From assembly GCA_013178315.1 (NCBI GenBank), contig JABLWX010000015.1, forward strand, positions 1 to 40,678: DNA of 40,678 nt. The letters are read 5' to 3'. Source of the DNA: Candidatus Aminicenantota bacterium. Its GTDB lineage: Bacteria > Acidobacteriota > Aminicenantia > Aminicenantales > Saccharicenantaceae. Position 1 is the stretch's first letter. Each line of letters starts with the position of its first letter. The notes below the pieces were generated by a model that was not told the DNA's origin, ran no database searches, and saw only the letters and a list, made by a program, of their open reading frames with translations. Below, piece by piece: positions 14,701 through 40,678 of this stretch. A program made the position numbers and the translations under genes.

Positions 14701-15355
14701 ATTTGCTGGAACACCCTTTTCAGTCACGATCACAGCAAAAGACGCAGGTGGTAATACGACAACCAATGTGACAGGAGAGACAGCTCTAACGGTCGATTCA
14801 GGAACTATTTCACCCACTTCAATCCCGGCTGCTGAATTCCAAGACGATGGGGTATGGACTGGAAATATCACTCTTAGCGCAGATGGTAACAGAACCATCA
14901 CGGCCACGAACAGCGGAAAAACAGGATCCGATACGATCAGAATATGGGCACTCATTACTTCTGCAACCGACCCGAATGAAGGAGCTATTCCCGATGGCAA
15001 AGATTTTGAGTCCATCCATTTATATAGGTCGAATAACAGATTGAGATCCGAAGTCAAATTCTATGACATTATCACGCTGAGTTACCCATTTTTCATCTAT
15101 GTAGATGTCGATGGTGATTCTACCCCGGAAATCCGGATAACATGCGGGCTTACAGGTTTTCAAGCTCGGACTTACCCCGCTGGTGAATTAATATATGCGG
15201 GTACTCCATCAGTCATAAAGGACACATACATCATGGAATATATATGGACTGATGTGTTCCCAACTTCCCCAATTCGAATCTGGCTACTGGCTGATGATAG
15301 AGATGGGTATGATAAATTGCCTGATGGTACTGGAGTAATTATAGTTAATTTCTAG
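8756..15355 (+). CDS. Giant secreted multidomain surface protein with NPNI[RV] pentapeptide repeats and SBBP propeller
   Basis: A 2199-residue protein with an N-terminal signal segment (residues 8-25). Reading along it: a sialidase/BNR-like propeller (about 45-560) with Asp-box-like motifs such as SFDGGESW and STDCGTTW; a linking beta domain; 16 tandem NPNI[RV]-type pentads (754-833); a beta-rich insert (834-916); four more pentads (917-936); two putative Ig (He_PIG) domains (about 1015-1205); a carboxypeptidase-regulatory-like domain (1208-1290); an InlB B-repeat-like domain (1292-1375); He_PIG (1376-1460); eight SBBP beta-propeller repeats (1462-1878); He_PIG (1882-1965); an invasin-like Ig domain (1971-2065); and an unrecognised C-terminal 130 residues. 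I see no LPXTG, autotransporter barrel or type IX sorting domain. The role is probably adhesion or glycan binding, by inference. It is monocistronic with a strong AGGGGAGG site. Confidence 0.9.
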   Translation: MSKHHLPGLVFLYLLAAILIGVSSHSQLREEQQSETQLEPGRNVNMVSGTTLPYGDPWLQRQNEPSIAVSTRNPLHLLAGANDYRTVDIPFSEGELPGKVQGAMAGDAWLGIYKSFDGGESWITSLLPGFPQDTSAEGMASPLKQFTTAADPIVRAGTNGLFYYSGMAFNRAQTMGGGSLFVARFIDNNNLEGGDPIKYLDTKIIDTGTSGQFIDMPRIAVDMPRGSGTISIDGQNIPRSNVYAAYTVFLGKTDLNVRSRIMFRRSTDCGTTWGSAIKISESQHIIQGATIAIDPNTGAVYVAFRRFLHPSQSNSIVVVKSNDFGQTFSAPVVIANINPFDQPATDAGGDNISDPAGPSFRTNSYPTMAVDNNGIVYVAWTERGWGPTGEARIVMSTSQGGSGWTTPRPVINEADSYSFQGHQFMPHLTFAQGKLVLVWYDQRVDECGMEYGHGNWISDNMPIRHTTDVRCAQANPGLNPVFQPSVQVSKYLWALKPGSDTELEQEQFNPPNFEMFKGGTTPFHGDYIEVAPSPQFVLGPNGWKFNTEPSPNAVFHAVWTDNRDVRPPADGKWTNYTPPASDQPGFGSVACSSSSPSTAGMRNQNIYTSSLVQGVLAASPSSSKTLGDLGHYYDTDNGLIPRAFVVFVQNPGADIKTFRLTIVDSDAEGAIPWIDGSFEELENLEELDVMIAPYSTVARTVFVRSSDEKASVQVDVVEIDGLGGEPVSGGLSGSVVLNPDPSSPVYAPSDEYHNPNIRNPNIVNWDELNPNIVNPNIRNPNIRNWDEINPNIVNPNIRNLNIVNPNIRNPNIVNPNIRNPNIVNPNIVNPNIRNYTEEDFDGAQVSDVVFTVKNEGNTSSTYTLKTYSKEALPDEVYAQLLVYRVHYTPSADYYNQTGSACELKVERHHQLILNVTNPNIRNPNIVNPNIRNPNIRNGGLDNATFAVPPGEEVEVILRVIDFEPETTQGQFRIMTTGQVFSAEAFAESLGFAVTSHAYNTQDAKTMPEEELTYPATATKLIISTSYLPDGVVGIPYSATLLADGGKTPYGWALTTGELPPGLNLDGSSGEIYGTPTTAGKYDFIVRVDDSAGDFDTQAFSIYIDSDSEPDALTITTTSLPSGVLNYWYGATLEAAGGVWPRTWSLAGGSLPPGLSLDSTGVISGKILQEEGQDYPTSYLFRARVNDKIGNTALRDFIIIVNINTKAYYTISGTVYDEFTGYPLGGVVMRGLPNTPVTDDSGYYSDQVPEGWSGTVTPFKAGHTFSPTSRSYAEVGSPQTSQDYNFGAAIFNLTISKAGTGTGTVTSSPAGVDCGLDCSEAYSASTSVQLTAAWAPGSMFAGWSGDVPAGHESDNPVTITMDGNKNLTATFNLAPVLVITTVAVFDGIKNTAYNTTLQFAGGVPPVTWSVLSGSLPSGLSLNSGTGQISGTPTVSGYFSFIVQAKDASLQTATKALSMTIADWVARYNGSGDEYDVVTAAAVDALGNVYVTGYSIGSGTGRDYATIKYDNAGVQQWVARYNGLGNGDDMASDIAVDSWGNVYVTGKSVGSGTLDDYATVKYNSSGIEQWVARYNGPANNYDWGEAIAVDSLGYVYITGSSVGNSFDYATIKYNSSGAEQWVSRFDGPLNEDDYASAIAVDSSGNIYVTGTGIIAPSRTFDFVTIKYNNGGIQQWASSSGTTGYEQSNDIAIDASGNIYLTGCTYRDGTGYDYFTVKFNSSGEIWTARYNGPANSDDKACSISLDPSGNVYITGYSQGSGTGNDYATVKYNSSGVEQWVARYNGPVDGEDLAFDITVNPLGDVYVTGRSEIGPTDWDYATIKYNSSGSQQWVARYNGPGNDDDLGQSIAIDPMGNVYVAGSSYASESGTDYTTLRYTQSFPSTLFITTDALDIGYVGTPYAATVWAFGGSGSRSWSIISGSLPPGMNLSPTTGIIAGTPTTPGTYNFTTQVVDGSLTATKPLSITISPSSAPLESFIINAPENGFAGTPFSVTITAKDAGGNTTTNVTGETALTVDSGTISPTSIPAAEFQDDGVWTGNITLSADGNRTITATNSGKTGSDTIRIWALITSATDPNEGAIPDGKDFESIHLYRSNNRLRSEVKFYDIITLSYPFFIYVDVDGDSTPEIRITCGLTGFQARTYPAGELIYAGTPSVIKDTYIMEYIWTDVFPTSPIRIWLLADDRDGYDKLPDGTGVIIVNF
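11015..11254 (+). repeat. NPNI[RV] pentapeptide repeat block 1 (16 units)
   Basis: Sixteen consecutive 15-bp units encode N-P-N-I-[RV], with variants NWDEL (unit 3), NWDEI (unit 7) and NLNIV (unit 10) that keep the five-residue register. Codons differ freely between units: proline uses CCT, CCG, CCC and CCA, isoleucine ATC, ATT and ATA, arginine CGG, CGC and AGA. The pattern P-N-I-x-N resembles the A-[DN]-L-x-x consensus of pentapeptide-repeat beta-helices with Pro in place of Ala. Confidence 0.95.
11504..11563 (+). repeat. NPNI[RV] pentapeptide repeat block 2 (4 units)
   Basis: Four more in-register 15-bp units (NPNIR, NPNIV, NPNIR, NPNIR) follow a beta-rich insert of 83 residues that separates them from the first block. 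The codons again differ between units. Confidence 0.95.
13139..14390 (+). repeat. Eight tandem SBBP (beta-propeller) repeats
   Basis: Eight repeats of about 50-54 codons share the core WVARYNGP, then AVDSxGNVYVTG, DYATIKYNSSG and a closing Q/E. Repeats 2, 3, 6, 7 and 8 are closely similar also at the DNA level around AAGTATAACAG and AGGTACAATGG. Eight copies would suit an eight-bladed propeller or two smaller ones. Confidence 0.9.
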
Positions 15356-15532: not shown

Positions 15533-18331
15533 CTATAGCGTCCTGATCCGCTGACGGGCGTCCTCGACCATAGCCTGGCCCGCGTCGGCTTTGGCCTTAA
15601 TGTTTAAGAATTTCTGGTAAGCCTCTTTGGCGGCGGCCTTCTTGCCCTGTCCCTCCAGGGCCCGGCCGATGTAATAATAAAGCGTGTCCAGATAGCGGAA
15701 AGTGGGCAGGTCATTCAGGAAAACCGACATGGCCTCACCCTGCCGCTTTTCACACTTCTCGAATTCAGCGCTGGCTTCCAGGTAGGCCCCTGCTTCAAGA
15801 TAAGCCCTTCCCAGGGCAAACCGTCCCAGCCAGGTATCAACCAGAGCCTGAGCTTCATCGAACAACTTTAAGGCGTTGGCTGTGTCCGCTCGCCTGAGAG
15901 ACAAGTATCCTCCCAGCAACTTAGAATAAGCCAGGTGGATGTCCTGTACCTTCTTGCCCAGTTCAGCCGCCATCAACCTGGCTTTGCCCTCATCCCCGGC
16001 TTCTGAATACACCACACCCGCTGCAAACAAGATTTCTTCGCGACTATTCATCGAAACTGCCTGGTCGGCCGCCTCTACGGCTTGCTTACTCTTCCCCTGG
16101 TTCAGATAAGCCTGAGCCAGCATGAGGGATTTATCGGCTGCCCTGTATGTTGATTTTTTCTCTAAGTCAGCAACGATTGCTTTTTTCAGGATGCCAATCG
16201 CTTCTTCCACCCTGCCTTCATAGAGGGCCAGGTCAGCCAGCCCAGTGGCCGCAAGAGATGCTCCCAGCGGACCCAATGGCGCAAGTTTATCGTAATATTT
16301 CACAGCTTCTTCGGGCTTCCCCTCAGCGACTTCAACCAGAGCCAGGACTATGAAGGCTTTTTCATAATTGGGACTTATCTCAAGCGTTTTCAGGGCTTCA
16401 AGCCTGGCTCTTCCGAAATCGCCGGAGGCCAGGGCATACCAGCTCTGGTTATAGCGGTGATCCAGGTTGTCGGGTTCTACTTCTATGGCCTTTAAGCCTT
16501 CCCGGAAGGCCTCGGGCATCCTGTATCCGAAGAAATAAGCCAGGGCCAAGTTGGTATGACCGGCCACATCCTGGGGAAAGTGCTTGAGAAGTTCTGTGTA
16601 TTCTTCAATAGCCCGCTTGAAATTATTCTTGAAAAGGTAATAGGCACCGCGCGTCCGGTGCTTCTCCCGGTCAGTCATCTGTTCGATGCGGTTCATCGCC
16701 TCGTTAAAATACTTTTCTGCAAGCTGCCACTCTCCCCGGGCATAATAAGCTACGGCTAGCCCGGCATAAGCCCGGCCACAGTTCGGGTCATGGTCAATCG
16801 CCCGGAGGTAAGCGGCAATGGCTTCTTCCTCTCTCCCCTGGGCATCCAGTCTCTGGGCATCCGCGTAGGCTTTCATGGCCTCAAGCGAAGTCGTGGTGAA
16901 GGTTTCCTTGATCAGGGCCTCTGAGGAATCAGGAGCAATAAGGCCCAGCCCCGAACGGAGCCTGGCTGCAATAACGTCAGTGGCCCTCAGAATATCAGTT
17001 TTATTTTTTATGACCTGGTCGGCTGAGGCTATCTCCTCCCCTTTGACCGCATCAATAGCTCGCGTCTTGATGAGAAAACCTTCCCTGGCTTTTTCAATAG
17101 AAGCCTTGACAACCGCATTAATCCCTTCTCGGCGCGAAAGCAGAAGGGCACTGGTCTCGGTCAGGCGGCCTCCCGCGCCGGGGTCCAGGTGGTTGATAAG
17201 GTTCATAGCCTGCTTGCGTTCATAGACTGAGATGTTTTCAGCCCCACCCAGACTGATGCTCAAAAGCTGCTCAAGAACTCCGTCCAGCATGGGATCGCCG
17301 GTCTGATTGGTAACATCGGCAATCAGGACCGAAACAGATTTGGGGCCGCCCGTTTCTGCTGGCACTGCCTTGTGTCCGATGAATTTCTGGATGGCCATGA
17401 CTCCCAGGGTGATCACTATGGCTGCGGCCACGACTATGAGAATCAGCCTGGTTAGAATCTTAGGGGCGCCTATGACTTCCTGCTGTACCAGTCGAAGGTC
17501 GTTAATAAAATCGCCAATGTTTTTGTAGCGGTCGGCAGGATTCTTGGCCAGGGCTTTATTAAGAATCGGGTTAAACGCGGGATTGACCGACCTGGGCTTG
17601 AGGTGAGGGGTCGGGACCGGGTCGCGGAGAATGGAGGTTAAGGTTTCTATCGGAGTCGGCCTGGAGAAGGGGTGCTTGCCGGTCAGCATTTCATAAAGAA
17701 CTATACCCAGAGAAAAAATATCGCTCCGGGTGTCAATCTTACCCCCCTTGGCCTGCTCCGGAGACATATAAGCTATAGTGCCTGTAATTATGCCTTGCTC
17801 ACTTATCGAAGCCTGCGTGAGCGTGCTGGTCAGCCCGACGGCATCTAATCCTGGTGCCACGCGCTTGGCCAGCCCGAAATCCATAACTTTGATATGCCCC
17901 TGGCTGGTGAGCATGATATTAGCAGGCTTAAGGTCACGGTGAACGATTCCTGCCTTGTGAGCATTTTCCAGGGCTTCGGCCACCTCCAGAGCAATCCGGA
18001 CTACGTCCCGGAGCTGAATAGGCTCTCTCTCCATCCGGTCCTTGAGAGTTTCTCCCTCTATGTACTCCATGGCTATGAAAGCTCTGCCCTCATGTTCGCC
18101 GGTTTCATAGATTTTACAGATGAATGGATGATCCAGGGCAGCTGCTGACTTGGCTTCACGGAGGAAACGTTCCCGGAAATGGGGATCCTTCTCAAGTTCA
18201 TCGGATAGGAATTTCAGGGCTACTCTTCGCTCCAGAATAGTATCCCTGGCCAGATAGACCTGGCCCATGCCTCCCTGCCCGAGAAGCTTGATGACCTCGT
18301 AATGCTGAACCCGATCTCCAGGTTTAACCAT
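15533..18331 (-). CDS. Transmembrane serine/threonine protein kinase with C-terminal TPR domain
   Basis: A 932-residue Hanks-type kinase. The N-terminal catalytic domain (10-280) has the glycine loop GQGGMG (18-23), Lys40 in VALKFL, Glu59, the catalytic HRDLKPAN (131-138), DFG (151-153) and a SPEQ activation-segment end. It should therefore be active. One membrane helix (about 294-314) follows, then a domain of about 140 residues (331-470, starting SVSVLIADVTNQTGD) typical of acidobacterial-type kinases, and then TPRs to the C-terminus. The predicted topology is kinase inside and TPRs outside, so it may sense extracytoplasmic protein partners. It is monocistronic behind a good promoter and convergent with the giant surface-protein gene; no direct link between them is shown. 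Confidence 0.93.
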   Translation of the reverse strand: MVKPGDRVQHYEVIKLLGQGGMGQVYLARDTILERRVALKFLSDELEKDPHFRERFLREAKSAAALDHPFICKIYETGEHEGRAFIAMEYIEGETLKDRMEREPIQLRDVVRIALEVAEALENAHKAGIVHRDLKPANIMLTSQGHIKVMDFGLAKRVAPGLDAVGLTSTLTQASISEQGIITGTIAYMSPEQAKGGKIDTRSDIFSLGIVLYEMLTGKHPFSRPTPIETLTSILRDPVPTPHLKPRSVNPAFNPILNKALAKNPADRYKNIGDFINDLRLVQQEVIGAPKILTRLILIVVAAAIVITLGVMAIQKFIGHKAVPAETGGPKSVSVLIADVTNQTGDPMLDGVLEQLLSISLGGAENISVYERKQAMNLINHLDPGAGGRLTETSALLLSRREGINAVVKASIEKAREGFLIKTRAIDAVKGEEIASADQVIKNKTDILRATDVIAARLRSGLGLIAPDSSEALIKETFTTTSLEAMKAYADAQRLDAQGREEEAIAAYLRAIDHDPNCGRAYAGLAVAYYARGEWQLAEKYFNEAMNRIEQMTDREKHRTRGAYYLFKNNFKRAIEEYTELLKHFPQDVAGHTNLALAYFFGYRMPEAFREGLKAIEVEPDNLDHRYNQSWYALASGDFGRARLEALKTLEISPNYEKAFIVLALVEVAEGKPEEAVKYYDKLAPLGPLGASLAATGLADLALYEGRVEEAIGILKKAIVADLEKKSTYRAADKSLMLAQAYLNQGKSKQAVEAADQAVSMNSREEILFAAGVVYSEAGDEGKARLMAAELGKKVQDIHLAYSKLLGGYLSLRRADTANALKLFDEAQALVDTWLGRFALGRAYLEAGAYLEASAEFEKCEKRQGEAMSVFLNDLPTFRYLDTLYYYIGRALEGQGKKAAAKEAYQKFLNIKAKADAGQAMVEDARQRIRTL

Positions 18332-26048: not shown

Positions 26049-27743
26049 TCAAAGACCCATTACCCGGCTGTCTTTTGGATATTCAACCGTAAACTCGATG
26101 GTAATTTCCTGTTTCTGGGCCGGATTGAGTTTCAGTTTCCAGGTCAGAATGCCTTTTTCATCCCGGCTGGAAGGTGCTGGCACTATTTTTACGTCCTTGA
26201 CCTCAATTTTTGTGTTCTGGCTAACCGGTATCTGGTCCTGAACTTCAATTTCCACCGGCCTGTTCCTCAGGTTCTCAATGGTAATCCGGAAAACCTGGGT
26301 GACTCTCTCGTTCTTACCCAGAAAACCCGGTCCGCTTTTTTCCCGCCTGACCAGCTCCCTTTTAACTTTGACCCGGTTATCCTCACCGAAAAAGAGCTCG
26401 AGGTCGTCATTAACCGGAATTAGTGGCATCATCAGGGACCCGACAAAATCCTGGGCAATGAACAGGTCGCTTTTTCCGCTGAGCAACGGGTAGGGTAGCG
26501 CGTTCTTGAAGGCCGCCCGCAGGAAAACCTGTTCCTGGAGCTTGGGAATGGCCAGGTAGTCGAAGGAAGCCGGGATTTTCTGAGAGTCGATGGGCACCCG
26601 ACGTTCGACCCCGTCGCTCAGGATGGTCCAGGGTTTCTTGATTTCAAAATTAACCCCCAGCCAGGTTTCAACTGTCTCGGCGGTTTCCTCAAAAGCCAGA
26701 GCCGGGGCAGCTTCAGCCTCAACCGCCATCTTGCTTTCGGCCAGGTCTCTGGCCGCGGCTCTCATCAACCTCGGCTGGACAAAATCCAGGTACCAGGGAG
26801 GAAGTTCTCCCGGCTGCTGGCCGGCCGTCGGCCGGCTGGTAGAAAGCAATAGCCTGACATTGTCCCAGTTTTCCCCGGTCTTCTGGGTGACGATGGCAGC
26901 TAATGTAAGTTCGACTTCTCCCGACTCGGGCATTGCTTTGACCGTGTAGACCGGGACCCAGCGGGCGGGGCTGACCGCATAAATCAATTCCACCTGGAGC
27001 TGGGTCGACTGCGCGGCTTCTACCAGGACGTTGACCACGGATTGTTCCCTGGAGCGGGCCGGCATGATTTCATTAAGCTTTTTCTTGAGGGCTTCCAGCC
27101 TGGCCTGCTGTTCAGCCAGAGCCCTGGCATTGTCCTGCCGGCTCTTCTGGATGCTTTGCAACCTGGTTCCCAGGTAATCAACAAACTTATCGACACCGGC
27201 CAGGTCTGGACGACCGGCCAGGAGCTCTTTTGAAACCTGGCCGCCCAGGGCCGAGCCAACAGAATTCAGAAATTTTTCCTGGGAATCGAGGATGGCCTCC
27301 TGTCCCTTGATCCGGCTGATCTCGGCTTCAACTGAACTTATCTCGTCCATGAGCTTCTTAACTTCCGGAAGCTCGCTGGCTTCCAGGAATTCCCGACTCG
27401 TCTCCACCCCCAGAATCTTGACCGGAGCCGAGCCGCTGGCCGATACCCTGACCGAGCCCGGAATTATCGTTCCCGGAAGACCCCTGAAAACCATGGCCCT
27501 GGTTTCCGGGCCAATCGCAGCCTGACCTTTTCTTACAACCTGGGCTCTATCCGGATAGACAATAACATTTTGAATCCGGCTGGCCACTTCTACCAGGGCG
27601 CTACCACCGCTTCTGGCCACCGCCTGGGCCCGGGGCTCCACCTGCTGGCCGGAATCCATGGTACCGGCCACAAGCGAGCCTGAGGCCAGAACGAGACCGA
27701 GTAGAAATAGAGCAAAATAAGTTGTTTCCTTTATATTTTTCAT
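26049..27743 (-). CDS. MuiA-like DUF4139 domain-containing exported protein
   Basis: A 564-residue protein of the mucoidy inhibitor A-like family (DUF4140 then DUF4139). A signal peptide (about 1-27) is followed by the DUF4140 opening IVYPDRAQVVRKG (near residues 61-73), a long coiled-coil-prone segment rich in Lys, Glu and Gln (about 125-225) and the DUF4139 beta domain with QKTGENWDNVRLLLSTSRP (near residues 288-306). It ends with a conserved beta stretch. The biochemical role of the family is not known; the name comes from an effect on mucoidy. The start ATG at 27741-27743 follows a GGAAGG about 10 nt away. An inverted repeat overlapping a promoter-like sequence lies directly upstream. Confidence 0.82.
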   Translation of the reverse strand: MKNIKETTYFALFLLGLVLASGSLVAGTMDSGQQVEPRAQAVARSGGSALVEVASRIQNVIVYPDRAQVVRKGQAAIGPETRAMVFRGLPGTIIPGSVRVSASGSAPVKILGVETSREFLEASELPEVKKLMDEISSVEAEISRIKGQEAILDSQEKFLNSVGSALGGQVSKELLAGRPDLAGVDKFVDYLGTRLQSIQKSRQDNARALAEQQARLEALKKKLNEIMPARSREQSVVNVLVEAAQSTQLQVELIYAVSPARWVPVYTVKAMPESGEVELTLAAIVTQKTGENWDNVRLLLSTSRPTAGQQPGELPPWYLDFVQPRLMRAAARDLAESKMAVEAEAAPALAFEETAETVETWLGVNFEIKKPWTILSDGVERRVPIDSQKIPASFDYLAIPKLQEQVFLRAAFKNALPYPLLSGKSDLFIAQDFVGSLMMPLIPVNDDLELFFGEDNRVKVKRELVRREKSGPGFLGKNERVTQVFRITIENLRNRPVEIEVQDQIPVSQNTKIEVKDVKIVPAPSSRDEKGILTWKLKLNPAQKQEITIEFTVEYPKDSRVMGL

Positions 27744-29179: not shown

Positions 29180-30520
29180 TCACTTGATTTCCTGGAAAAT
29201 ATATTCAGCCCGGCGACGCGAGGGCATCCGGTAAACGGAAACCAGGCTTTCGAACCCGTTCACCCCAAGGACCGAAACCCCGAAGGTCAGGTCATCGATG
29301 GAAACATTCTTCAGGATGAAAGAATCTGTTTTCCTGGCAAAATAACACCGCTCCCAGAACGGAGCCTTGGTATCCCTGACATAGACCTTGAAACCGGAAA
29401 TCTTCTCCATATCCCCTTCCCACTTCCAGCGCAGTTCAGCATCATAGCCCTGGCCCCGGCCGAGAAGCGGTCCTCCCCTTTCTGAAGTTACCACCGGGGC
29501 TTCGGGAGCACAGGCCAGCGACAGGGTTGAGGCCAGAACGATTCTGGCCACATCGGCACAGTACGGAACTGACAGATTTTCAATTATGTCCTGGGTGGTA
29601 TGCTGGACGGAATAATTTTCCCTGGCCTCGGTAAAACGTATCCCGGCATAGCCTTCCTGCACGAACGGCGTGTGGTCTCCGCCGCGGCCGAAGCGGTCGG
29701 CCCGGTAAATCAGGTTGACCTCAAACGACGGATAAACCTGTTCGGCAATCTTTTTCATGTACCTGGCCAGCTCCCGGCTGGTTGAATCACTGGGGTCATC
29801 GCTGAAGACCCTGACCCGGGTTGAATCAATGTAGCCGTTTCCGGCCCTGACGTTGGAAATCATGTCCATGGTCAGCACCGCTTCGACCCTTTTTCCCTGC
29901 TGTTTCATCTTCTGGGCATAAAGCGTTGAGCCCACCAGGCCCTGTTCCTCGCCGGAAAAGGCTGCAAAATGAATGGTAGCTTCGGTTTCCAGGGGAGCGA
30001 TAATCCTGGCCATCTCCAGGAGGGCGGCTATCCCGGAAGCGTCATCGTTGGCCCCCGGGGCCCCGGTATTGAAATCCTCGTAATGGAAGCGGCCGTCCTG
30101 GCTGACGGCAATTGTGTCATAATGAGCATTGACGATGATTATTCTTTCCCGGTTGGCCTTTCCCTTTTTTATGGCCACCACGTTATGAAGTTCGGTATCC
30201 CTGACTATTCTCTGGCCCTGCTTTGGAAGCTTATAGCCGTCGTCAACCACTTCCAGCCCCGGAATTTTTCGGAATTCTGTAAGCAGCCAGTCGCGGGCCG
30301 CGGCAATGCCAGAGTTTTTGCCCGCCGGCTCGGAGAGAAGGTTCCTGGTCTTAAAGCCCTGCAGGGCCTTGATGGTGGCGGTAATATTCTGCTCGGAGAC
30401 CTGGTCAACGGCCTTCTTCAGGAAGTCGTAGCCCCGGGCTTCAATTTCCTGGGCTCCAGATGCCTGAATAATAAAAAAAGCCCCGGCCAGAATAAAAAAT
30501 AATCTGATCCCTTTTTTCAT
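29180..30520 (-). CDS. Secreted M28-family zinc aminopeptidase
   Basis: A 446-residue exported di-zinc exopeptidase. A signal peptide (1-23) is followed by the M28 domain with ligands H133 and catalytic D135 in NAHYDT, bridging D159 in GANDDASG, catalytic E191 with ligand E192 in SGEEQG, D219 in TMDM and H307 in QHTTQD. All active-site residues are present. Residues from about 345 form a beta domain resembling fibronectin type III, possibly for substrate or surface binding. GGAGG lies 6 nt before the ATG. The gene starts 43 bp after the tricorn gene ends, on the same strand, so the two likely form an operon in which tricorn-derived peptides are trimmed to amino acids; this pairing is inference. 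Confidence 0.93.
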   Translation of the reverse strand: MKKGIRLFFILAGAFFIIQASGAQEIEARGYDFLKKAVDQVSEQNITATIKALQGFKTRNLLSEPAGKNSGIAAARDWLLTEFRKIPGLEVVDDGYKLPKQGQRIVRDTELHNVVAIKKGKANRERIIIVNAHYDTIAVSQDGRFHYEDFNTGAPGANDDASGIAALLEMARIIAPLETEATIHFAAFSGEEQGLVGSTLYAQKMKQQGKRVEAVLTMDMISNVRAGNGYIDSTRVRVFSDDPSDSTSRELARYMKKIAEQVYPSFEVNLIYRADRFGRGGDHTPFVQEGYAGIRFTEARENYSVQHTTQDIIENLSVPYCADVARIVLASTLSLACAPEAPVVTSERGGPLLGRGQGYDAELRWKWEGDMEKISGFKVYVRDTKAPFWERCYFARKTDSFILKNVSIDDLTFGVSVLGVNGFESLVSVYRMPSRRRAEYIFQEIK

Positions 30521-30563: not shown

Positions 30564-33500
30564 CTACTTCTTGGGATACGGGGGCACGGCCGGAAGCTTA
30601 GGCTCCCTGGTCTTGAGTTCTTCCAGGATGAGTTCGATGGCCTTGTTGAGCTGCTCGTCTATTCCTTCATATTCTTTGGCCGGGTCGTTATCCAGGTAAA
30701 TATCCGGTTCTACCCCCTCGCCTTCGATGATCCACTGTCCTTCCAGGCTGAAGGTGGCAAATTCCGGCTTGTTCAGGTAGCCGCCGTCCACCAGGGGCAG
30801 GGTACCCCTGATGCCGACCACCCCGCCCCAGGTCCTCTTGCCTATCAGCTTGCCGAGCTGCATTCTCTTAAACCGGTAGGGAAAGATGTCGCCATCGGAA
30901 GCCGAAAATTCGTTGATCAGGCAGACCTTGGGTCCCATGATCAGGGCCTCGGGGTCAGGCCTGGGCACCGAGCCCCGGGCGATGTCCATCATCACCGCCT
31001 GGCGGGCCAGCCGTTCGATCAGCATGGGCGAGACATTGCCGCCGCCGTTCCCGCGGACGTCGATGATCAGGGCCTTCTTATCAACCTGGGGATAGAAATG
31101 CTTGACGAACTCATTGAGCCCGGTGACGCCCATGTCGGGCACGTGGATGTATGCTACCTTGCCGCCGGTAGCCCTGGAAACATACTCGGTATTCTTCTTG
31201 ACCCAGTTGTAGTAATAGAGACTGTTTTCTGTCTCAATCGGCACCACCACCACTTCCCTGGCGCCTTTGTCCGAGGGCTGGGAATTAATTTTCAGGGTCA
31301 CCTGTTTCCCGGCAGTGTTGACCAGCAGTTCGTAAATATCCTTTACCTGGTTGACCGGCTTCCCGTTGACCGCAATTATGTATTCGCCCTCCTTAACATT
31401 GACCCCGACTTCGGTCAGCGGCGAGCGCAGGCTCCGGTCCCAGTTCTGCCCGGCCAGGATTTTCTTTATAAGGTAATAGCCGGACCTGTCGCGTTCCAGG
31501 CGAGCGCCCAGCCGGCCGACGTTCACCCGGTCCACTTTCGGCAGGTCGCCACCCCCGACATAAGTGTGGCCGGCATTCAGCTCTCCGATCATCTCCCCGA
31601 TGACGTAGGTCAGGTCGGCCCGGTGGTTGACCGCCCTGGCCAGCGGCTCATACTGGGCCCTGACTTTTTCCCAGTCCACCCCGTGCATGTTGGGTGCGTA
31701 GAAGAAGTCCTTCATCTGGCGCCAGCACTCATCAAAAATCTGGGCCCACTCGGCTTTCCGGTCGAGCCACATTTCCAGCTCGGAGAGATTCAGCTTGTCT
31801 TCAATCTTGATCGGTCCGGCCGGAAGGTCGATGATGGCAAAATCGCGGCCCTGCTGCACCAGCATCTTCTTCTTGTCGGCCGAAATTACATAGCCGTTGA
31901 CGCTGCCCAGGTCTTTTTCTTCGAGCTTGCCAAGGTCGTAGAATTTAAGCGAGGTCTGCCGATCACCGAAGGATCTCTTCATATAGAATAGCTTATCCCC
32001 AACCGAGGTCAGGCCGAAATAGCCGGATACTTCAACCGGCAGGGCCACGATCCTGTCCTTGATGCCTTCCTTATCGACGCGGACCGCCAACTTTTCCGCA
32101 GCCGGCTTGGCCGCAACCGGCTTTTCAATTTTCGGTTTTTCCGGAGCGGTAGCTTCGGCCGCCGCCACCTTCACCTCGTCGCTTTTCGGTTCAAACGGGG
32201 ACTTAACCTCGCGGGTCAGGGTCACCAGGTAGATCCTCGACATGTTCAGGTAGGCATGGTTCCACTCGGTTCGGCTGTAGACCGGGCTGAAGTCGCGGTC
32301 GGAAACGAAGAACAGGTACTTGCCGTCAGCACTGAAGCAAGGAGAATAGGAAGAATACCAGCTGTCGGTGATTTCTACTGTCTCCTTGCTGTTCAGGTTG
32401 TGTATGTAAACTTTTTGCATCCCGTTTTCAGCCTGGTCTGAAAAAGCAATCCAGGCTGAATCGGGAGACCAGGTATAGTCGTTGATTTCCCAGAACTTGC
32501 TCCTGGCCACCTCCACCACCTGCTTCTTCTCCACGTCAACGTAGCGCAGGCGAAACATCCGGTCCGACCAGAGGAGTTTCTTACCGTCGGGGGACCAGAG
32601 CGGGGCGTACTTGTAGCACTCGCCGTCGGAGGTCAGCTGAACGGCCGGGCCCGAGCCGTCCTGGGGAATGATGTAAACTTCTTCCCGTCCCGTCTTATCC
32701 GAAATGAAAGCGATCCAGCGGCCGTCGGGCGACCAGGCCACGTCCCGCTCGTGAACGCCCGGGGTCCCGGTCAGGTTCCGGGTGTTGCCGTTCTTGGCCG
32801 GCACGGTGAAGATTTCACCGCGGGCTCCGAAAACCGCCCGGGCCCCGTCCGGGGCGATATCCCAGGTGTTTACCCTGTCAGCCACCTTGACCAGCTCGGT
32901 CCGGGCCACCACCTGGTCATCGGCGATATGGACCGGAATCCGGCTGACCTTTTCCGAGGCCAGGTCCAGTTTATAGAGATAGCCGCCGTTCTCAAAAACG
33001 ATGGAGTCGGGACCGAGCGAGGGAAACTTGATGTCGTAGTCCTTGAAATCAGTTACCTTTCTTGTTTCCCCGGTTTCGGTATTATAAACATAGAGGTTAA
33101 AGCGCTTGTTCTCGTCGCGGTCGGACAGGAAATAAATCCTGTTCCCGCTCCACATGGGAATGATGTCAGAGGCCCCGTTATTGGTGATGTTTTCGGTCTT
33201 TTTCGTCTTGAAATCATAAACCCAGATGTCATCAACCATACCGCCCCGGTACCTTTTCCAGGTGCGGAACTCCCGGAAGATGCGGTTAAAGGCCAGCTTC
33301 TGCCCGTCGGGCGAAAAAGAACAGAACCCGCCCCGTGGCAACGGCAGTTCTTCCGGCGTCCCCCCATCCCTCGGCACCAGGTAGAGCTGCCCGTTGAAAT
33401 CATTCCACTCGGCCATCCTGGAACGGAAGATGATTTTCTGGCCGTCGGGCGTCCAGCCCATGACGATGTTGTTCGGGCCCATCCTGTCCGAGATGTCATC

Positions 33501-33866
33501 GCGGCCCAGAACGGGCGTGTAGGTCAGGCGGACCGGGACGCCGCCTTCGGCCGGCATCAGGAATACTTCCCGGTTGCCGTCGTACTCGCCGGTAAAGGCG
33601 ATGAACTTACCATCTGGCGAAAACCTGGCAAAGGCTTCATAGCCCACATGGGAGGTCAGCCGTCTGGCCACCCCGCCCGCCGCCGGCACCGAGTACAGGT
33701 CACCGGCATAGGAAAAGACCACCAGGTCCTTGTAGATGGCTGGAAAGCGCAGGACCCTGGCTTCCTCTGCCGCGTGCAATCTGGCCGCGCCGGCCAAAGC
33801 CAGCAGAATCAGGAAAAAAACCAGAATACCGATAGAATGCTTTACCCGGAAAAGCCTGGAAATCAT
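30564..33866 (-). CDS. Exported tricorn-type S41 protease with beta-propeller domains
   Basis: A 1100-residue homologue of tricorn protease. A signal peptide (1-32) leads into about a dozen WD40/PD40-like propeller repeats (40-550; SPDGK/SPDGR motifs), then a low-complexity linker rich in Ala, Lys, Glu and Pro (about 555-600), a core domain with H767 in LNAGHTYV, a PDZ domain (about 785-870) and the S41 domain with RGNGGGN (938-944), the nucleophile S990 in SASDGD and an acidic GEGVEPD near 1048-1054. Archaeal tricorn has Ser before the His (S745-H746); here it is Gly766. Archaeal tricorn is cytosolic, whereas this one is exported. AAGGAG is 6 nt before the ATG. It probably degrades peptides in the periplasm. 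Confidence 0.93.
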   Translation of the reverse strand: MISRLFRVKHSIGILVFFLILLALAGAARLHAAEEARVLRFPAIYKDLVVFSYAGDLYSVPAAGGVARRLTSHVGYEAFARFSPDGKFIAFTGEYDGNREVFLMPAEGGVPVRLTYTPVLGRDDISDRMGPNNIVMGWTPDGQKIIFRSRMAEWNDFNGQLYLVPRDGGTPEELPLPRGGFCSFSPDGQKLAFNRIFREFRTWKRYRGGMVDDIWVYDFKTKKTENITNNGASDIIPMWSGNRIYFLSDRDENKRFNLYVYNTETGETRKVTDFKDYDIKFPSLGPDSIVFENGGYLYKLDLASEKVSRIPVHIADDQVVARTELVKVADRVNTWDIAPDGARAVFGARGEIFTVPAKNGNTRNLTGTPGVHERDVAWSPDGRWIAFISDKTGREEVYIIPQDGSGPAVQLTSDGECYKYAPLWSPDGKKLLWSDRMFRLRYVDVEKKQVVEVARSKFWEINDYTWSPDSAWIAFSDQAENGMQKVYIHNLNSKETVEITDSWYSSYSPCFSADGKYLFFVSDRDFSPVYSRTEWNHAYLNMSRIYLVTLTREVKSPFEPKSDEVKVAAAEATAPEKPKIEKPVAAKPAAEKLAVRVDKEGIKDRIVALPVEVSGYFGLTSVGDKLFYMKRSFGDRQTSLKFYDLGKLEEKDLGSVNGYVISADKKKMLVQQGRDFAIIDLPAGPIKIEDKLNLSELEMWLDRKAEWAQIFDECWRQMKDFFYAPNMHGVDWEKVRAQYEPLARAVNHRADLTYVIGEMIGELNAGHTYVGGGDLPKVDRVNVGRLGARLERDRSGYYLIKKILAGQNWDRSLRSPLTEVGVNVKEGEYIIAVNGKPVNQVKDIYELLVNTAGKQVTLKINSQPSDKGAREVVVVPIETENSLYYYNWVKKNTEYVSRATGGKVAYIHVPDMGVTGLNEFVKHFYPQVDKKALIIDVRGNGGGNVSPMLIERLARQAVMMDIARGSVPRPDPEALIMGPKVCLINEFSASDGDIFPYRFKRMQLGKLIGKRTWGGVVGIRGTLPLVDGGYLNKPEFATFSLEGQWIIEGEGVEPDIYLDNDPAKEYEGIDEQLNKAIELILEELKTREPKLPAVPPYPKK

Positions 33867-34149: not shown

Positions 34150-34163
34150 CCAATTTGCCGAAC

Positions 34164-34970
34164 ATGAGTTTTGCGACGCTCTCACCCATACTTCAGGCTT
34201 TCCTGGCTACCATGTTCACCTACCTGATGACCGCGACCGGGGCGGCCTCGGTGCTTTTCCTCAAGAAGGTTAATCGGCGAATCCTGGACCTGATGCTGGG
34301 TTTTGCCGGCGGGGTGATGATCGCCGCCAGCTTCTGGTCCCTGCTGGCCCCGGCCCTGGAGATGTCAAAAAACCGCAGCCTGCCGATGTGGTTTCCCCCG
34401 GCTGCGGGCTTCCTGGCCGGAGCCGGTTTTCTTTTCGCCCTGGACCGGACCCTCCCCCACCTTCATCTCTTCCTGCCGGAAGAGCTGGCCGAGGGACTCA
34501 AAACTCACTGGCGGAAAACCACCCTGCTGGTCCTGGCCATCACCCTCCACAACATTCCCGAAGGCCTGGCCGTGGGTGTAGCCTTCGGAGCGGCCTCGCT
34601 CGAAGTACCACGGGCCACCCTGGGTGGAGCGATCGCCCTGACCCTGGGATTAGGTCTGCAAAATCTGCCCGAAGGCCTGGCCGTTTCCGGGCCGTTGCGG
34701 GCAGCGGGACTCAGCCGCCGAAAGAGCTTTTTCCTCGGTCAGCTATCTGGGTTGGTGGAGCCTGCGGCCGGAGTCCTCGGGGCCCTGGCCGTGACCAGGA
34801 TGATTTCCATCCTGCCCTATGCCCTGGCCTTTGCCGCCGGGGCCATGATCTTCGTGGTGGTGGAGGAAGTGATTCCCGAATCGCAGCAGAGCGGAAAATC
34901 AGACCTGGCCACCATCGGTCTCATCCTGGGTTTCCTGTTGATGATGATCCTGGACGTGGCCCTGGGCTGA
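34164..34970 (+). CDS. ZIP-family metal transporter
   Basis: A 268-residue inner-membrane protein with about eight hydrophobic helices, of the ZIP family (GufA-like), which imports Zn2+ or related divalent metals. The two metal-site helices are clear: TLHNIPEGLAVG (TM4) and LQNLPEGLAVSG (TM5). A further acidic cluster VVEEVIPE lies in the last third. A short loop with HLHLF between helices 3 and 4 may bind metal. The frame is open to a TTG at 34155, but the ATG at 34164 is preferred. No Shine-Dalgarno sequence is seen. It is convergent with the metzincin-TPR gene, with only 12 bp between their stop codons. Metal specificity is not determined by the sequence. Confidence 0.92.
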   Translation: MSFATLSPILQAFLATMFTYLMTATGAASVLFLKKVNRRILDLMLGFAGGVMIAASFWSLLAPALEMSKNRSLPMWFPPAAGFLAGAGFLFALDRTLPHLHLFLPEELAEGLKTHWRKTTLLVLAITLHNIPEGLAVGVAFGAASLEVPRATLGGAIALTLGLGLQNLPEGLAVSGPLRAAGLSRRKSFFLGQLSGLVEPAAGVLGALAVTRMISILPYALAFAAGAMIFVVVEEVIPESQQSGKSDLATIGLILGFLLMMILDVALG

Positions 34971-34982
34971 GCCGACCCCTGA

Positions 34983-37058
34983 TTACTTCTTTACTTTTTT
35001 CCTGAGTTCATCCACAAAATTCGGGTCCACCCGGAAACCGCTCTGCAGGGCCTTCAGGCAGAACTCCCAGCTCTGCTCGTACTGGCCGCGGCGGTAATAG
35101 ATAACGGCCAGGTTATTATAGATGGGGCCATTTCCCGGATGCTGGGGATTCAGGGCCACCGCCTTCAGGAACAATTCCAGGGCGCGCTCATCATTGGCCA
35201 GTGAATATTCCACCGCAGCCAGGTTGAGCACCGTGTCGCGGTCGAGCGGGTTAATTTCCAGGGACCGGTTCAGCGCTTCCCGGGCTTCGTTGAGCCTGTT
35301 CTGCTGGGCCAGGGCTATACCCAGATTGTTAAAGGCCACCGCCAGGTCCGGCTGGAGCCTGAGAGCTTCCCCGGCTGCCTTCTCGGCTTCCTTCCAGTCC
35401 TTTCTGGCCAGATGGGCAAAGCTCAAATTCACATAGAGAGCGGGACTTCCGTGGCCGAGCTCCCTGGCCCGCTCGAAGTTCCTAATGGCTTCGTCCCAGT
35501 TTTTTTCCTGGAGGTAGCTCAATCCCAGCCCGGCATAAGCTTCGGCAAAAAGCGGGTCCGCCCCGATGGCCTTCAAAAAATATTCCCGGGCTTCATCCCG
35601 GCGCTTCAGGTCGGAAGCAACCAGGCCCAGGTTGTAAAGGGCCTTTTCGTTCTTCGGGTTCCTGGCCAGTGCCTTTTTATAATAATTGATGGCCTCTTCC
35701 AGCTGCCCGCTCTGCCGCAGGATGTTGCCTTTCATGTTATAAGCCGCGGTCATCCCGGGGTCGAGGGCCAGGGCCTTTTCCACGCAGTCCGCAGCCCGTG
35801 TCAGGTCCTTCTGTTTCAAGTAGACTTCGGCCAGGTTGGCGTAGGCCAGGGCAAACTCACCGTGAAGCTCGACAGCCTTCTGAAATTCTCTCTCCGCTTC
35901 CGGCAGCCTGTCCTGCCGGAGGTATATTTCCCCAAGGTTGTTATGGGCCTCGATAAAATCAGGCCTGGCCCGGAGTACCTCAAGATAGATTTTTTCGGCC
36001 TCGGCCAGGCGGTTCTGGCGGCCGTAGGCAATACCCAGGTTGTACAGAACCCTGACCTGCCCGGGTCGGTCTTTCAGGATTCTCTGGTAGAGCTGGATGG
36101 CTTCATCCACCCTGCTGGCCCTCCTCAGGGCTATGGCCTTCAGGTTGAGGGCTTCGTAACTTCCTGGACTCATCACCAGGGCTTCGTCGCAATACTCAAC
36201 GGCCCTCCCGTATTCTCCCTTTTCCAGTTGAAGCTGGGCCAGCATCAGCGAGCAATCGGCCAGGCAGATAGCCCTTTTCTGGGCCGGGAACGGAAGTCGG
36301 CTGGCCGGAACTTTTCCCCCGAACAGTCTCTTAATTTCCTTATCGTTGAGAATTCTCTGCCGGATTCCAAGGTATATTTTTTCCAGTTCTCCCCTGGTGC
36401 TCTCCGGAAAAGGAAATCCAAACGGTCGGAAGTGGCGCTGTCGGCCAAGCCGGATGATTTCCTGGTTGTCCCGGTCGAAGGTCTGGCCTTCGCCCCCGCA
36501 GCTCATTATCGAGCTGGCCAGGGGAATGTGAACTGCTCCGAAAACATGCCCCAGCTCGTGCAGCAGAAGTTTCTTCAACTTGTAGCGGTCCGGGGTGTAG
36601 ATGACCACCACCGTGCCCACCCGGAAAAGGGAAAAACCGGTATATTCCAGCTCCAGGTCGGGCTGGGCGGTTACGGCTATCAGAATATCGGCTCCCCGCT
36701 TCAGCTCGGCCCGGTCCAGGTCTTCGGCCAACTCCTCCAGGCTCCGGGCTTCATCCGGCGACTGCCAGCGGTCCCAGCCCTGCCAGCGGAAGCGGAGGTC
36801 AAAGAGCTTTTCAAACTCCCGGCTCACCTCCCGAAGCAGGCCTTCCACCCGTTCCCTGGAAACCAGCCGGGCCTCCAGCTCCTCGTCGGCCGCCAGCCGG
36901 ATGCTTATTTCCCTGATTTCACCGGGGCTGGCCACTGGTTGGTTCATCACCGGTTGGGGGGTGTGATAACCGTCGTGTTCAGCCGGTACGGGAGAGGAAT
37001 AGCCAGACCAGGCCACGAGAAAAAGGAGGAGCATACAATAAGCCACCCGCCTGAGCAT
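34983..37058 (-). CDS. Exported metzincin-like metalloprotease fused to TPR repeats
   Basis: A 691-residue protein numbered from the ATG at 37056-37058 (an upstream in-frame TTG adds one codon). A signal peptide (1-22) is followed by a protease-like domain (about 45-240) with HELGHVFGAVH, giving zinc ligands H167, H171 and H177 and catalytic E168, and a possible Met-turn at M185 in SSIMS. These are hallmarks of metzincins. A linker and about twelve TPRs (from about 265 to the end) follow. The substrate is unknown; the TPRs could recruit it. The gene starts 42 bp after the RND pump gene on the same strand and probably shares its transcript. A small hairpin (CCCG/CGGG) in the gap lacks a T tract. 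Confidence 0.85.
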   Translation of the reverse strand: MLRRVAYCMLLLFLVAWSGYSSPVPAEHDGYHTPQPVMNQPVASPGEIREISIRLAADEELEARLVSRERVEGLLREVSREFEKLFDLRFRWQGWDRWQSPDEARSLEELAEDLDRAELKRGADILIAVTAQPDLELEYTGFSLFRVGTVVVIYTPDRYKLKKLLLHELGHVFGAVHIPLASSIMSCGGEGQTFDRDNQEIIRLGRQRHFRPFGFPFPESTRGELEKIYLGIRQRILNDKEIKRLFGGKVPASRLPFPAQKRAICLADCSLMLAQLQLEKGEYGRAVEYCDEALVMSPGSYEALNLKAIALRRASRVDEAIQLYQRILKDRPGQVRVLYNLGIAYGRQNRLAEAEKIYLEVLRARPDFIEAHNNLGEIYLRQDRLPEAEREFQKAVELHGEFALAYANLAEVYLKQKDLTRAADCVEKALALDPGMTAAYNMKGNILRQSGQLEEAINYYKKALARNPKNEKALYNLGLVASDLKRRDEAREYFLKAIGADPLFAEAYAGLGLSYLQEKNWDEAIRNFERARELGHGSPALYVNLSFAHLARKDWKEAEKAAGEALRLQPDLAVAFNNLGIALAQQNRLNEAREALNRSLEINPLDRDTVLNLAAVEYSLANDERALELFLKAVALNPQHPGNGPIYNNLAVIYYRRGQYEQSWEFCLKALQSGFRVDPNFVDELRKKVKK

Positions 37059-37100
37059 CAATTAGATAATACCCGAATTTTTTCCGGGCAGGAAGCCGGC

Positions 37101-40100
37101 TCAGGCTTTCCTGGCTCTTTTCTGCTCAAACAGAGAATAGACCACCGGAATGACCACCAGGGTGATGAAGGTGGAGCTGGTCAGACCGCCGATAACCGTC
37201 CTGGCCAGGGGGGCCTGAACTTCGCTTCCTTCCCCCAGCCCGATGGCCATGGGCAACATGGCGATGATGGTGGTCAGAGCCGTCATCAGGATGGGGCGCA
37301 GCCTTCTCCGGCCAGCCTCTTTGATGGCCTCCATCATTTCCATGCCGTCTCGATCCCGGAGCAGGTTGGTATAATCCACCAGAAGGATGGCGTTGTTGAC
37401 CACGATCCCGCCCAGCATGATTAAACCGATGTAGGTCTGAACGTTCAGGGTGGTATTGGTCAGAATGAGTATCAGCACCACTCCGATGATGGCCAGGGGC
37501 ACCGAGAACATGACGATCAGCGGGTCGCGCAGCGACTCGTAGAGCATGGCCATGACCATGTAGACCAGGAACAGGGCCAGGATGATGGCCAGCATCAGCT
37601 CCCGGTTGGCTTTCTGCTGTTCCTCGTAATCCCCGGTAAAGTTTATGACGAAATCGCGGGGCACGGGAACAACCCTCAGGGCCCGGCGAGCATCGCGGAT
37701 GACCGAGCCCAGGTCGCGGTCGGCTATCTCTCCGGAAACGGTGATGACCCTCTCCCGGTCGCGCCGTTCAATCTGCTGCGGTCCCCTTTCTTCCCGGACC
37801 TCGATGACGTTCCGCAGGCTGACCGGCTCACCGATGGCATTGGTAATGGTCAGGTCCAGGATCTCGTTAAGGTCCAGCTTCTCTGAATCCTTGACCCTGA
37901 CCAGGATCCGGTACTCCCGACCGCCTTCGCGGAAGTAGCTGGCCTGGGAACCGGACAGAATGGTCATGATGAAATTTCCGATCTGGTTGACCGAAAGCCT
38001 CATGTCGGAAGCCTTCTGGCGGTCGACCACCAGGTGGCGTTCCGGCGTTCCTTCCAGCCGGCTGACGCGGACGTCGGTCACGCCCCTGATTTTTGTGACC
38101 ACGTTCTTGACCTGCTCGGCCAGGCTCTGGGCCACCTTCATGTCGTAGCCGCGGACCTCGATCTGCAACCTCTCGGCCCCGCCGCCTCCCCTCATGCCAA
38201 ACATCATCTGGCCGCCCGAGGCCCTGGTCCGGACCAGGGCTCCCGGAACTCCGGAGAGCTTGCGGCCGAGGTCGGCTGCGATTTCCATGCTGGAGCGGGT
38301 TCTCTGTGATTTCGGGACGAGCTTCAGGGTGATGTTTCCCTGGTTGGCCCCACCGCGCCAGCCGCCGCTTCCGGCCCTCTCCTCGATCGATTCAATTTCC
38401 GGGACATACATCTTGGCCAGGTTGACCACTTCCCTGAGCTTCTGGTCCATGACCGAAAGCCTGGTACCCACTTCCATTTCGACGGTGATGGAGACTTCGC
38501 CCTCGTCGGTCTGGGGCATATACTCCCGTCCCACAAACCTGAACAGAAAGATGCTGACCAGGAGTAGGATTCCGGTAATCAGCAGCACCCGTGGCCGGTG
38601 ATGGAGGCTGTAATTCAGGAGATTTTTGTAAGAGTTCTCCATCCTGGCGAAGAGTTCCTTGGCTTTAACCGCCAGCCTGGAATGATGGTAGTGGCCCATT
38701 TCTTCTTCCTTGAGAATCTTGCTGGACAGCATCGGCACCAGGGTCAGGGCCACAACCAGGGAGCAGGCCAGCGAAAAGGCCACCACGTAGGCCAGCTGCT
38801 TGAACATGATGCCCGAGGCTCCCCGGACGAACAGCATCGGCATGAAGACGATGACCGTGGTCACGGTGCTGGCGATGATGGCCGAGGTGACCTCCTTGGC
38901 CCCGTTGACCGCCGCCTGCATCAGCGGCTTACCCTCTTCCTCCCGCATGCGGAAGATATTTTCCAGGACCACGATGGAGCTATCGACCATCATGCCTATT
39001 CCCAGGGCCAGGCCGCCCAGGCTCATGACGTTCAGGGTAAAACCGTTGAAGTAAATCAGGGTAAAGGTGGCGATGATGGAAATCGGGATGGACAGGGCAA
39101 TGACCAGGGTGCTCCTGAAGTTTACCAGGAAGAACAGCAGGACAAAGATGGCCAGAAGACCACCGTACAGGGCCGAGTCGCCGACGTTGCTGATGGCATT
39201 CTTGATGTAGCGGGCACTATCCCGGAGAGTGATGAACTTGAACTGGGGATAATCTTCCTGGAGGCTCTTGATTTCCTTGAGGACTCCGTCCACCACCTTA
39301 ACCGTATTTTGGCCAGACTGCTTGTAAACGGCCAGCCTGACCCCTTCCAGGTCGTTGATGCGGGCCACCCGGGTAATGCGCCGAAAAGTATCCTCGACAC
39401 TGGCAATGTCCCTGACCCGTATGGCTGCCCCATCCCTGACCGCGATGATGGTCTCCCTGATCTGGTCGACGTTGGTATAAACCCCGGGTATCCTGATGGT
39501 AATCTCGTAGTTTCCCTTCTCGATGGTACCGGCCGGGATATCAATATTTTCCTGGCGCAGCTTGCTGATGATGGTATCGAGTGGCAGGCCCAGGGCCTTG
39601 ACCTTGTCCGGCATCAGGTTTATCTGGATTTCCCTTTCCCGGCCGCCCCAGACTTCTATCGAGGCCACGCCGGGGACTCTTTCCAGGCGGTAGGTCATCT
39701 GCTCGTCGATGATCTTCCGGACCTGGATGGGGTCGAGCTCGGTCAGGACACCCATCATCAGGACTGGCATCTGGGCCGGGTCGAACTTCCTCAGGGTCGG
39801 TCGCTGGACTTCTTCCGGGAAACGGCCGATGATCCGGTCGATTCTTTCCCGGATGTCATTGGCCGCCTCTTCCAGGTCCGTACCCCAGGCAAACATGACC
39901 CGGACCGTGCTCGAACCCTGGGAAGAAACCGAATAAATTTCTTCGACCCCGGGAACCGAGCTCAGGGCTTCTTCAATCGGCCTGGTAATGATCTGTTCCA
40001 TCTCTTCAGGAGCGGTGTTGCCGTAGGAGGTGGAAACATTCAAGGTCGGGTAGGTTATATCTGGCATCAGGTCAATCGGGATCCGGCTCAGCGAGATGAA

Positions 40101-40175
40101 GCCCAGGACGATGACCACCAGGGTCAGCATTATCACAAAAATCGGCCGTTTTATCGAAAATTCAGATAAACTCAT
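37101..40175 (-). CDS. RND-family (HAE1-type) multidrug efflux pump inner-membrane subunit
   Basis: A 1024-residue proton-driven transporter that would work as a trimer with a periplasmic adaptor and an outer-membrane channel. It opens with MSLSEFSIKRPIF, followed by TM1, a large periplasmic loop, a TM2-TM6 block, a second periplasmic loop and TM7-TM12. TM4 has GIGMMVDSSIVVLENI, where the Asp is the expected proton-relay residue. Length and duplicated organisation are normal. Of two adjacent ATGs (40178 and 40175) the second is 5 nt from GGAGG and is chosen; the frame also extends to a TTG at 40187. The adaptor gene ends 41 bp upstream. No outer-membrane channel gene is seen in the window. 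The substrate is unknown. Confidence 0.95.
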   Translation of the reverse strand: MSLSEFSIKRPIFVIMLTLVVIVLGFISLSRIPIDLMPDITYPTLNVSTSYGNTAPEEMEQIITRPIEEALSSVPGVEEIYSVSSQGSSTVRVMFAWGTDLEEAANDIRERIDRIIGRFPEEVQRPTLRKFDPAQMPVLMMGVLTELDPIQVRKIIDEQMTYRLERVPGVASIEVWGGREREIQINLMPDKVKALGLPLDTIISKLRQENIDIPAGTIEKGNYEITIRIPGVYTNVDQIRETIIAVRDGAAIRVRDIASVEDTFRRITRVARINDLEGVRLAVYKQSGQNTVKVVDGVLKEIKSLQEDYPQFKFITLRDSARYIKNAISNVGDSALYGGLLAIFVLLFFLVNFRSTLVIALSIPISIIATFTLIYFNGFTLNVMSLGGLALGIGMMVDSSIVVLENIFRMREEEGKPLMQAAVNGAKEVTSAIIASTVTTVIVFMPMLFVRGASGIMFKQLAYVVAFSLACSLVVALTLVPMLSSKILKEEEMGHYHHSRLAVKAKELFARMENSYKNLLNYSLHHRPRVLLITGILLLVSIFLFRFVGREYMPQTDEGEVSITVEMEVGTRLSVMDQKLREVVNLAKMYVPEIESIEERAGSGGWRGGANQGNITLKLVPKSQRTRSSMEIAADLGRKLSGVPGALVRTRASGGQMMFGMRGGGGAERLQIEVRGYDMKVAQSLAEQVKNVVTKIRGVTDVRVSRLEGTPERHLVVDRQKASDMRLSVNQIGNFIMTILSGSQASYFREGGREYRILVRVKDSEKLDLNEILDLTITNAIGEPVSLRNVIEVREERGPQQIERRDRERVITVSGEIADRDLGSVIRDARRALRVVPVPRDFVINFTGDYEEQQKANRELMLAIILALFLVYMVMAMLYESLRDPLIVMFSVPLAIIGVVLILILTNTTLNVQTYIGLIMLGGIVVNNAILLVDYTNLLRDRDGMEMMEAIKEAGRRRLRPILMTALTTIIAMLPMAIGLGEGSEVQAPLARTVIGGLTSSTFITLVVIPVVYSLFEQKRARKA

Positions 40176-40216
40176 CATTCCCTCCAATTTTCAGGTAGCG
40201 AAACCTGGAACATGGC

Positions 40217-40678
40217 TTATTTCCCCGGGCCGGAAGGTTTTCCCGGTTTCGGCTGGCCTTCTCCCGGCTTGGTCGGCTCTGGCAGGATGATGCTCATACC
40301 GTCCTGGAGAAGGTGTTGACCCAGGGTAACGACATATCCCTGCAGGCCGGCCGGTTCCAGGATCTCGGCCCTTTCGCCTTCGACAATTCCAACCGTAACC
40401 GGCTGAAAGGTGGCCTTTTTATTTTCCAGGTCGGCCAGGAAAACTCCCTGCCGGTCTCCCCTGGTGACCACGGCTCCGAAGGGCACCAGCCTGGCCTGGT
40501 CGCGCCTGGCAAACTCGATTTCGGCGTTGATGAACATCCCAGGCTTGAGCAGGCCATCCTCGTTGGGAATATCGACTTCCACCCTGGCCTGTCTCGAAGT
40601 CTCCTTTAGCAACGGAGCCACCCGTACCACCTTGCCATAAAATTTCCTTCCTGGAAAAACCGTGGAGCTTATTTCCAC
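40217..40678 (-). CDS. RND efflux periplasmic adaptor (membrane fusion protein), N-terminus outside the window
   Basis: The last 154 codons of an HlyD/AcrA-like adaptor. The frame is open to the right edge, so the GTG near 40678 is not the start. The visible part starts in the beta-barrel domain (FPGRKFYGKVVRVAP), continues with DGLLKPGMFINAEIEF, the family's most typical motif, then the membrane-proximal domain and ends in a Pro/Gly/Lys-rich tail of about 25 residues. The adaptor links the pump to its outer-membrane channel. Its position 41 bp before the pump gene confirms the assignment. The Pro-rich tail may be disordered. Confidence 0.9.
   Translation of the reverse strand: MEISSTVFPGRKFYGKVVRVAPLLKETSRQARVEVDIPNEDGLLKPGMFINAEIEFARRDQARLVPFGAVVTRGDRQGVFLADLENKKATFQPVTVGIVEGERAEILEPAGLQGYVVTLGQHLLQDGMSIILPEPTKPGEGQPKPGKPSGPGK

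Follow-up and report, generated by a model that had tools for sequence, protein, structure and literature searches.

A gene of Candidatus Saccharicenans encodes a protein in which a signal-like N-terminus is followed by a domain of predicted metzincin fold, with an intact HExxHxxGxxH zinc motif, and then by twelve TPRs. As structure prediction and comparative sequence, the fold, the motif and the fusion are established. The reading that we favour, and hold to be somewhat probable, is that the protein is an exported, envelope-located metzincin zinc endopeptidase whose TPR superhelix recruits clients, resembling BepA of E. coli in its working without being related to it. The gene lies in a window of 40,678 nucleotides, which is the whole stretch of DNA that was analysed (contig JABLWX010000015.1), and is identical in Candidatus Saccharicenans subterraneus BY38 (locus L039); the host is Candidatus Saccharicenans, of the Aminicenantales.

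Architecture of the protein

The open reading frame gives 692 amino acids from a TTG at 37061, or 691 from the adjacent ATG at 37058. Residue numbers used here are TTG-based, and ATG-based numbers are one lower, so that E169 corresponds to the E168 of an earlier, first-pass annotation of this DNA. Orthologues in the genus are of similar length. The features of the gene are:

34983..37061, minus strand: whole gene, with signal peptide, metzincin domain, helical linker and twelve TPRs (open reading frame and translation)
36984..37061, minus strand: signal peptide, approximately residues 1-26, followed by some 20 variable, disordered residues (by reading, model and dN/dS)
36417..36926, minus strand: predicted metzincin-fold domain, residues 46-215 (AlphaFold2 model; Foldseek and VIA matches)
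36528..36560, minus strand: zinc motif HELGHVFGAVH, residues 168-178 (translation; invariance)
36501..36515, minus strand: Met-turn SSIMS, residues 183-187, with M186 (invariance of S184 and M186; structural alignments)
36261..36416, minus strand: helical linker, residues 216-267 (modelled at full length with helices at 220-238 and 241-247)
35019..36260, minus strand: twelve TPRs, residues 268-681 (Pfam, repeat HMM, model, OGT fold match and column conservation)

The first-pass annotation had counted about twelve TPRs behind a full HExxHxxGxxH motif, and both observations are borne out, the repeats numbering twelve by Pfam TPR_2 (1e-67) and again by a repeat HMM (270-681). Full-length Pfam and NCBIfam scans list TPRs only, because the TPR families crowd out the rest, and the N-terminal domain was scanned separately. 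A full-length structural model (pLDDT 89.5, pTM 0.81) places a helix at residues 3-19 and has low pLDDT at 20-46, and the N-terminus is hydrophobic and signal-like.

A predicted metzincin fold

An AlphaFold2 model of the domain alone, built on an alignment of 27 domains, has a mean pLDDT of 89 and a pTM of 0.86. In domain numbering, its strands fall at 7-16, 46-56, 83-88, 99-102 and 107-111, and its backing, active-site and C-terminal helices at 25-44, 116-130 and 154-163; this five-stranded sheet with three such helices is the metzincin architecture, and the predicted fold and sequence features agree with a published list of metzincin features (PMC12237041). Foldseek ranks ADAM-8 and snake venom metalloproteinases highest for the model (E 7e-9). 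When chains already ranked by Foldseek were compared with VIA, the top 50 had Z from 17.3 to 16.0 and rmsd of 2.2-2.8 A over 161-168 residues, the nearest being adamalysin/ADAM metzincins. The structural alignments with metzincins extend beyond the Met-turn, to about residue 212.

Sequence comparison points the same way. A single-sequence search of the PDB returned archaemetzincin at E 0.12, one unrelated row and nothing else, while a family profile (alignment A3) matched mostly metzincins, among them archaemetzincin 2x7m (1.4e-5), fragilysin (3e-5) and snake venom proteases (3e-4). Against PF13688 (Reprolysin_5), for which the gathering cut-off is 27 bits, the window's domain scores 24.8 bits and its relatives at loci L026 and L036 score 51.6 and 36.6. 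Comparison of the N-terminal fold with metzincins had been put forward as a check in the first-pass annotation, and model, Foldseek and VIA matches, profile and PF13688 scores of relatives together predict a metzincin fold.

Zinc site across the family

The predicted zinc ligands, from translation and motif, are H168, H172 and H178, with E169 as predicted general base. In 17 aligned relatives, with identity down to 37% (alignment A4), the ligands, F174, G175, S184 and M186 are all invariant, and M186 is likewise invariant in A3; S184 and M186 belong to the SSIMS that the first-pass annotation had singled out as a candidate Met-turn. Among 60 distinct relatives the zinc ligands are intact in 59, with the Glu base present in the rows that were read, so that homologues lacking the ligands, which would have undermined the original proposal, are confined to one. 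With the predicted metzincin fold as well, the first-pass interpretation is supported. Because the ligands are kept so widely and these further residues are invariant in all 17, the motif is not a chance occurrence, and the conserved site suggests that the protein is likely an active envelope protease.

The third ligand is His in 41 relatives and Asp in 18, an Asp in this position being known from snapalysins and thuringilysins (PMC12237041). A 59-row tree of divergent sequences, in which many forks are weak, places its 17 Asp rows in one group with support of 99/97. The residue after the third ligand in the 41 His rows is Val in 29, Ile in 4, Thr in 3, Arg in 3 and Leu in 2, and in none is it Asp.

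A few members depart from this pattern. The protein at L088 (9789-11699, plus strand, genome G024) has lost all zinc ligands, keeps eight TPRs and is likely a pseudo-protease, and three distant acidobacterial proteins (L095, 3633-4655; L096, 678-1823; L098, 2976-5330) keep HExxHxxGxxH but carry Leu where the Met-turn would have Met. These four suggest that parts of the family may have a non-catalytic role, and they are what speaks for a reading in which the work is done by the TPR scaffold, the metzincin domain serving for binding or sensing and catalysing little or nothing. The three ligands of 59 of the 60 relatives, the Glu base and a dN/dS of 0.06-0.18 in the catalytic domain argue against it, and we regard it as very improbable.

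Selection and the probable absence of a conserved prodomain

Measured against five orthologues, dN/dS is 0.06-0.18 for the metzincin domain and 0.09-0.11 for the TPRs, indicating purifying selection on both parts, and 0.46-1.34 for the first 45 residues. Zymogen synthesis is common among metzincins (PMC6949598). Here, the stretch between signal peptide and domain leaves no room for a classical prodomain, and since dN/dS, low in both domains, rises to about 0.5 or more in residues 1-45, a conserved prodomain is unlikely. In distant relatives the first strand of the domain follows the signal peptide almost immediately.

Distribution of the domain and its fusion to TPRs

The metzincin domain occurs in 53 of 119 related genomes; in a sample of 297 genomes from the phylum, 31 have it when the weakest matches are counted. 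It is also found in KSB1, Omnitrophota, Planctomycetota (Thermogutta), Ignavibacteriota and Armatimonadota. A search for the same fusion in related genomes, also proposed at first pass, found it: at least four TPRs follow the domain in the same frame in 49 of the 60 distinct domains, and the fusion recurs across Aminicenantales, other Acidobacteriota, KSB1 and Omnitrophota. Several of the others stop at a contig end or are divided between frames (L046, L057, L060 and the first copy of L083). TPR-poor or TPR-less members are those at L063, L064, L095, L096, L106 and L061, the last beside a full-length copy, and at L065 TPRs flank the domain on both sides. Tandem metzincin genes are seen at L083 (9402-13472), where the TPRs of the first copy run on in a second, overlapping frame, and at L061 (2192-4818), where the first copy is without TPRs.

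Gene neighbourhood

Upstream of the metzincin-TPR gene, the window holds two genes:

37101..40187, minus strand: RND transporter (ACR_tran, Pfam 3e-273), whose stop codon precedes the metzincin-TPR gene by 39 bp
40217..40678, minus strand: 3' end only of the gene that precedes the RND gene, in the membrane-fusion-protein position (by position)

Further upstream still, the identical locus L039 has a gene for a TolC-type OEP. Eight loci of the genus that offer enough sequence have the order TolC-MFP-RND-metzincin-TPR, in which the OEP was identified by Pfam in L039 and by position and length in the rest, and two more show the RND-metzincin part. Four loci have the order metzincin-TPR-TolC-MFP-RND. 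In three of these four, where the contig reached that far, a large SBBP protein is encoded upstream. Directly upstream at L049 (1949-5782), L052 (1986-5783) and L110 (9210-13076) is a surface-type DUF7948/SBBP/fn3 protein of about 1280 amino acids. Such a protein is the next upstream gene in a second subgroup and in genome G013, and it is a possible client of the metzincin-TPR protein.

This linkage raises the possibility of a dedicated TolC-MFP-RND partner, such that the pump would be the docking site of the TPRs, with the protease maturing or removing pump parts or exported cargo, and the placement of the gene directly after or before TolC-MFP-RND, on the same strand, in most Candidatus Saccharicenans species is what one would expect of it. 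The two can be found apart, however, G006 having the RND operon without metzincin-TPR and G013 having metzincin-TPR without an orthologous RND. The second subgroup and G013 have the DUF7948/SBBP/fn3 gene as upstream neighbour instead, and BLAST against the window's proteins found no orthologue of the window's RND near the gene in loci of other families. Partnership with the pump as a general function was accordingly rejected, being confined to the genus and broken in two of its genomes, and a dedicated partnership seems distinctly unlikely.

Elsewhere in the window, a gene for a ZIP-family metal transporter (34155-34970, plus strand) converges on the metzincin gene, and this synteny extends over much of the genus. 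Other peptidases are encoded at 3213-5822 (M14-like), 29180-30520 (M28) and 30564-33866 (tricorn-like, PD40/PDZ/S41). TPRs fused to a protein kinase domain (15533-18331, minus strand), a 2199-residue protein carrying SBBP, He_PIG and InlB-type repeats that is probably surface-exposed (8756-15355, plus strand) and a DUF4140/DUF4139 protein (26049-27743, minus strand) are also present.

The M14 carboxypeptidase-like, M28 and tricorn-like S41 genes of the window, and the occurrence of tricorn and M28 genes nearby across much of the genus, would suit a secreted, nutrient-scavenging protease acting on external protein, its TPRs merely holding substrate or cell surface. Yet G006 has lost metzincin-TPR and keeps tricorn and M28, and the strong conservation of all twelve TPRs, at a dN/dS of about 0.1, points to specific partners; we consider scavenging quite improbable.

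The TPR superhelix and its asparagines

The best fold match of the TPR part, and its nearest natural protein, is the TPR superhelix of OGT, which by sequence ranks second behind a designed consensus TPR. Asn occupies TPR position 6 in eight of the twelve repeats, five of these being invariant across all 17 rows, and the positions align with the asparagine ladder of OGT, in which position-6 Asn contacts peptide backbones (PMC10618255). Because 13 of 22 aligned repeats in control TPRs of the same genome also carry Asn at this position, the ladder is not specific and is suggestive only; as proof of peptide binding it was rejected. A thread-and-cut scheme for an envelope protease, in which the Asn ladder would grip unfolded backbones and feed them to the metzincin site, in a multi-phylum family that seemingly underwent one His-to-Asp ligand swap and kept its TPRs, is unlikely.

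Comparison with known systems

The closest parallel in working is BepA (YfgC) of E. coli, which pairs an HExxH zinc protease domain, located in the periplasm, with a C-terminal TPR domain that binds clients and partners (PMC7950410). BepA differs in that its protease domain is M48, with an active-site plug, and in having far fewer TPRs; no M48 match was found among the Pfam rows for the window's domain, whose predicted fold matches metzincins instead. The M94/DUF1025 mini-zincins also combine a zincin with TPRs, some with a signal peptide (PMC3890501), but theirs is a much smaller domain that carries HExxHxxGxxD and lacks a Met-turn. That no characterised example of such a fusion was known, as first stated, thus holds for metzincins, for which none was found, and not for zinc proteases with TPRs at large. 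TPRs are named among the accessory domains of astacins (PMC9848320). No description of a metzincin-TPR family was found in the open-access literature.

Within the metzincins, the adamalysins/reprolysins (M12B, PF13688) are closest in fold, and the L026 and L036 relatives reach the PF13688 cut-off. Adamalysins carry a family-specific Asp directly after the third zinc His. In the present family that Asp is absent, the residue being mostly Val or Ile, and the window protein further differs in being bacterial, TPR-fused and short of room for a classical prodomain. Archaemetzincin (M54) is the best PDB match by sequence profile, but its TM-score is below that of adamalysins, and M54 proteins have a Cys after the third His that is part of a Cys4 zinc site (PMC12237041). 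The window protein has Ile179 there, and no row of the 60-relative comparison has Cys; membership of the archaemetzincins was rejected for its absence. OGT resembles the TPR part in fold, sequence and Asn-6, and differs in being a glycosyltransferase and in that Asn-6 is general among TPRs.

On the favoured reading of a client-recruiting envelope protease, a Sec signal peptide would direct passage across the inner membrane, after which zinc would be held by H168, H172 and H178, E169 would activate water and M186 would form the floor of the site. By analogy with BepA and OGT, we infer that the TPRs recruit clients: the OGT-like superhelix may capture extended or unfolded client segments, or dock on an envelope partner, and captured segments would be offered to the cleft, in the service of quality control or maturation, much as BepA does with its unrelated protease domain.

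If this is true, the family would be BepA's counterpart among metzincins: a secreted zinc protease and a TPR recruiter would have been joined independently, and this in lineages (Aminicenantales, Omnitrophota and KSB1) where envelope quality control is barely known. Its His-ligand, Asp-ligand, Met-turn-less and ligand-less members constitute a natural experiment on what a metzincin requires.
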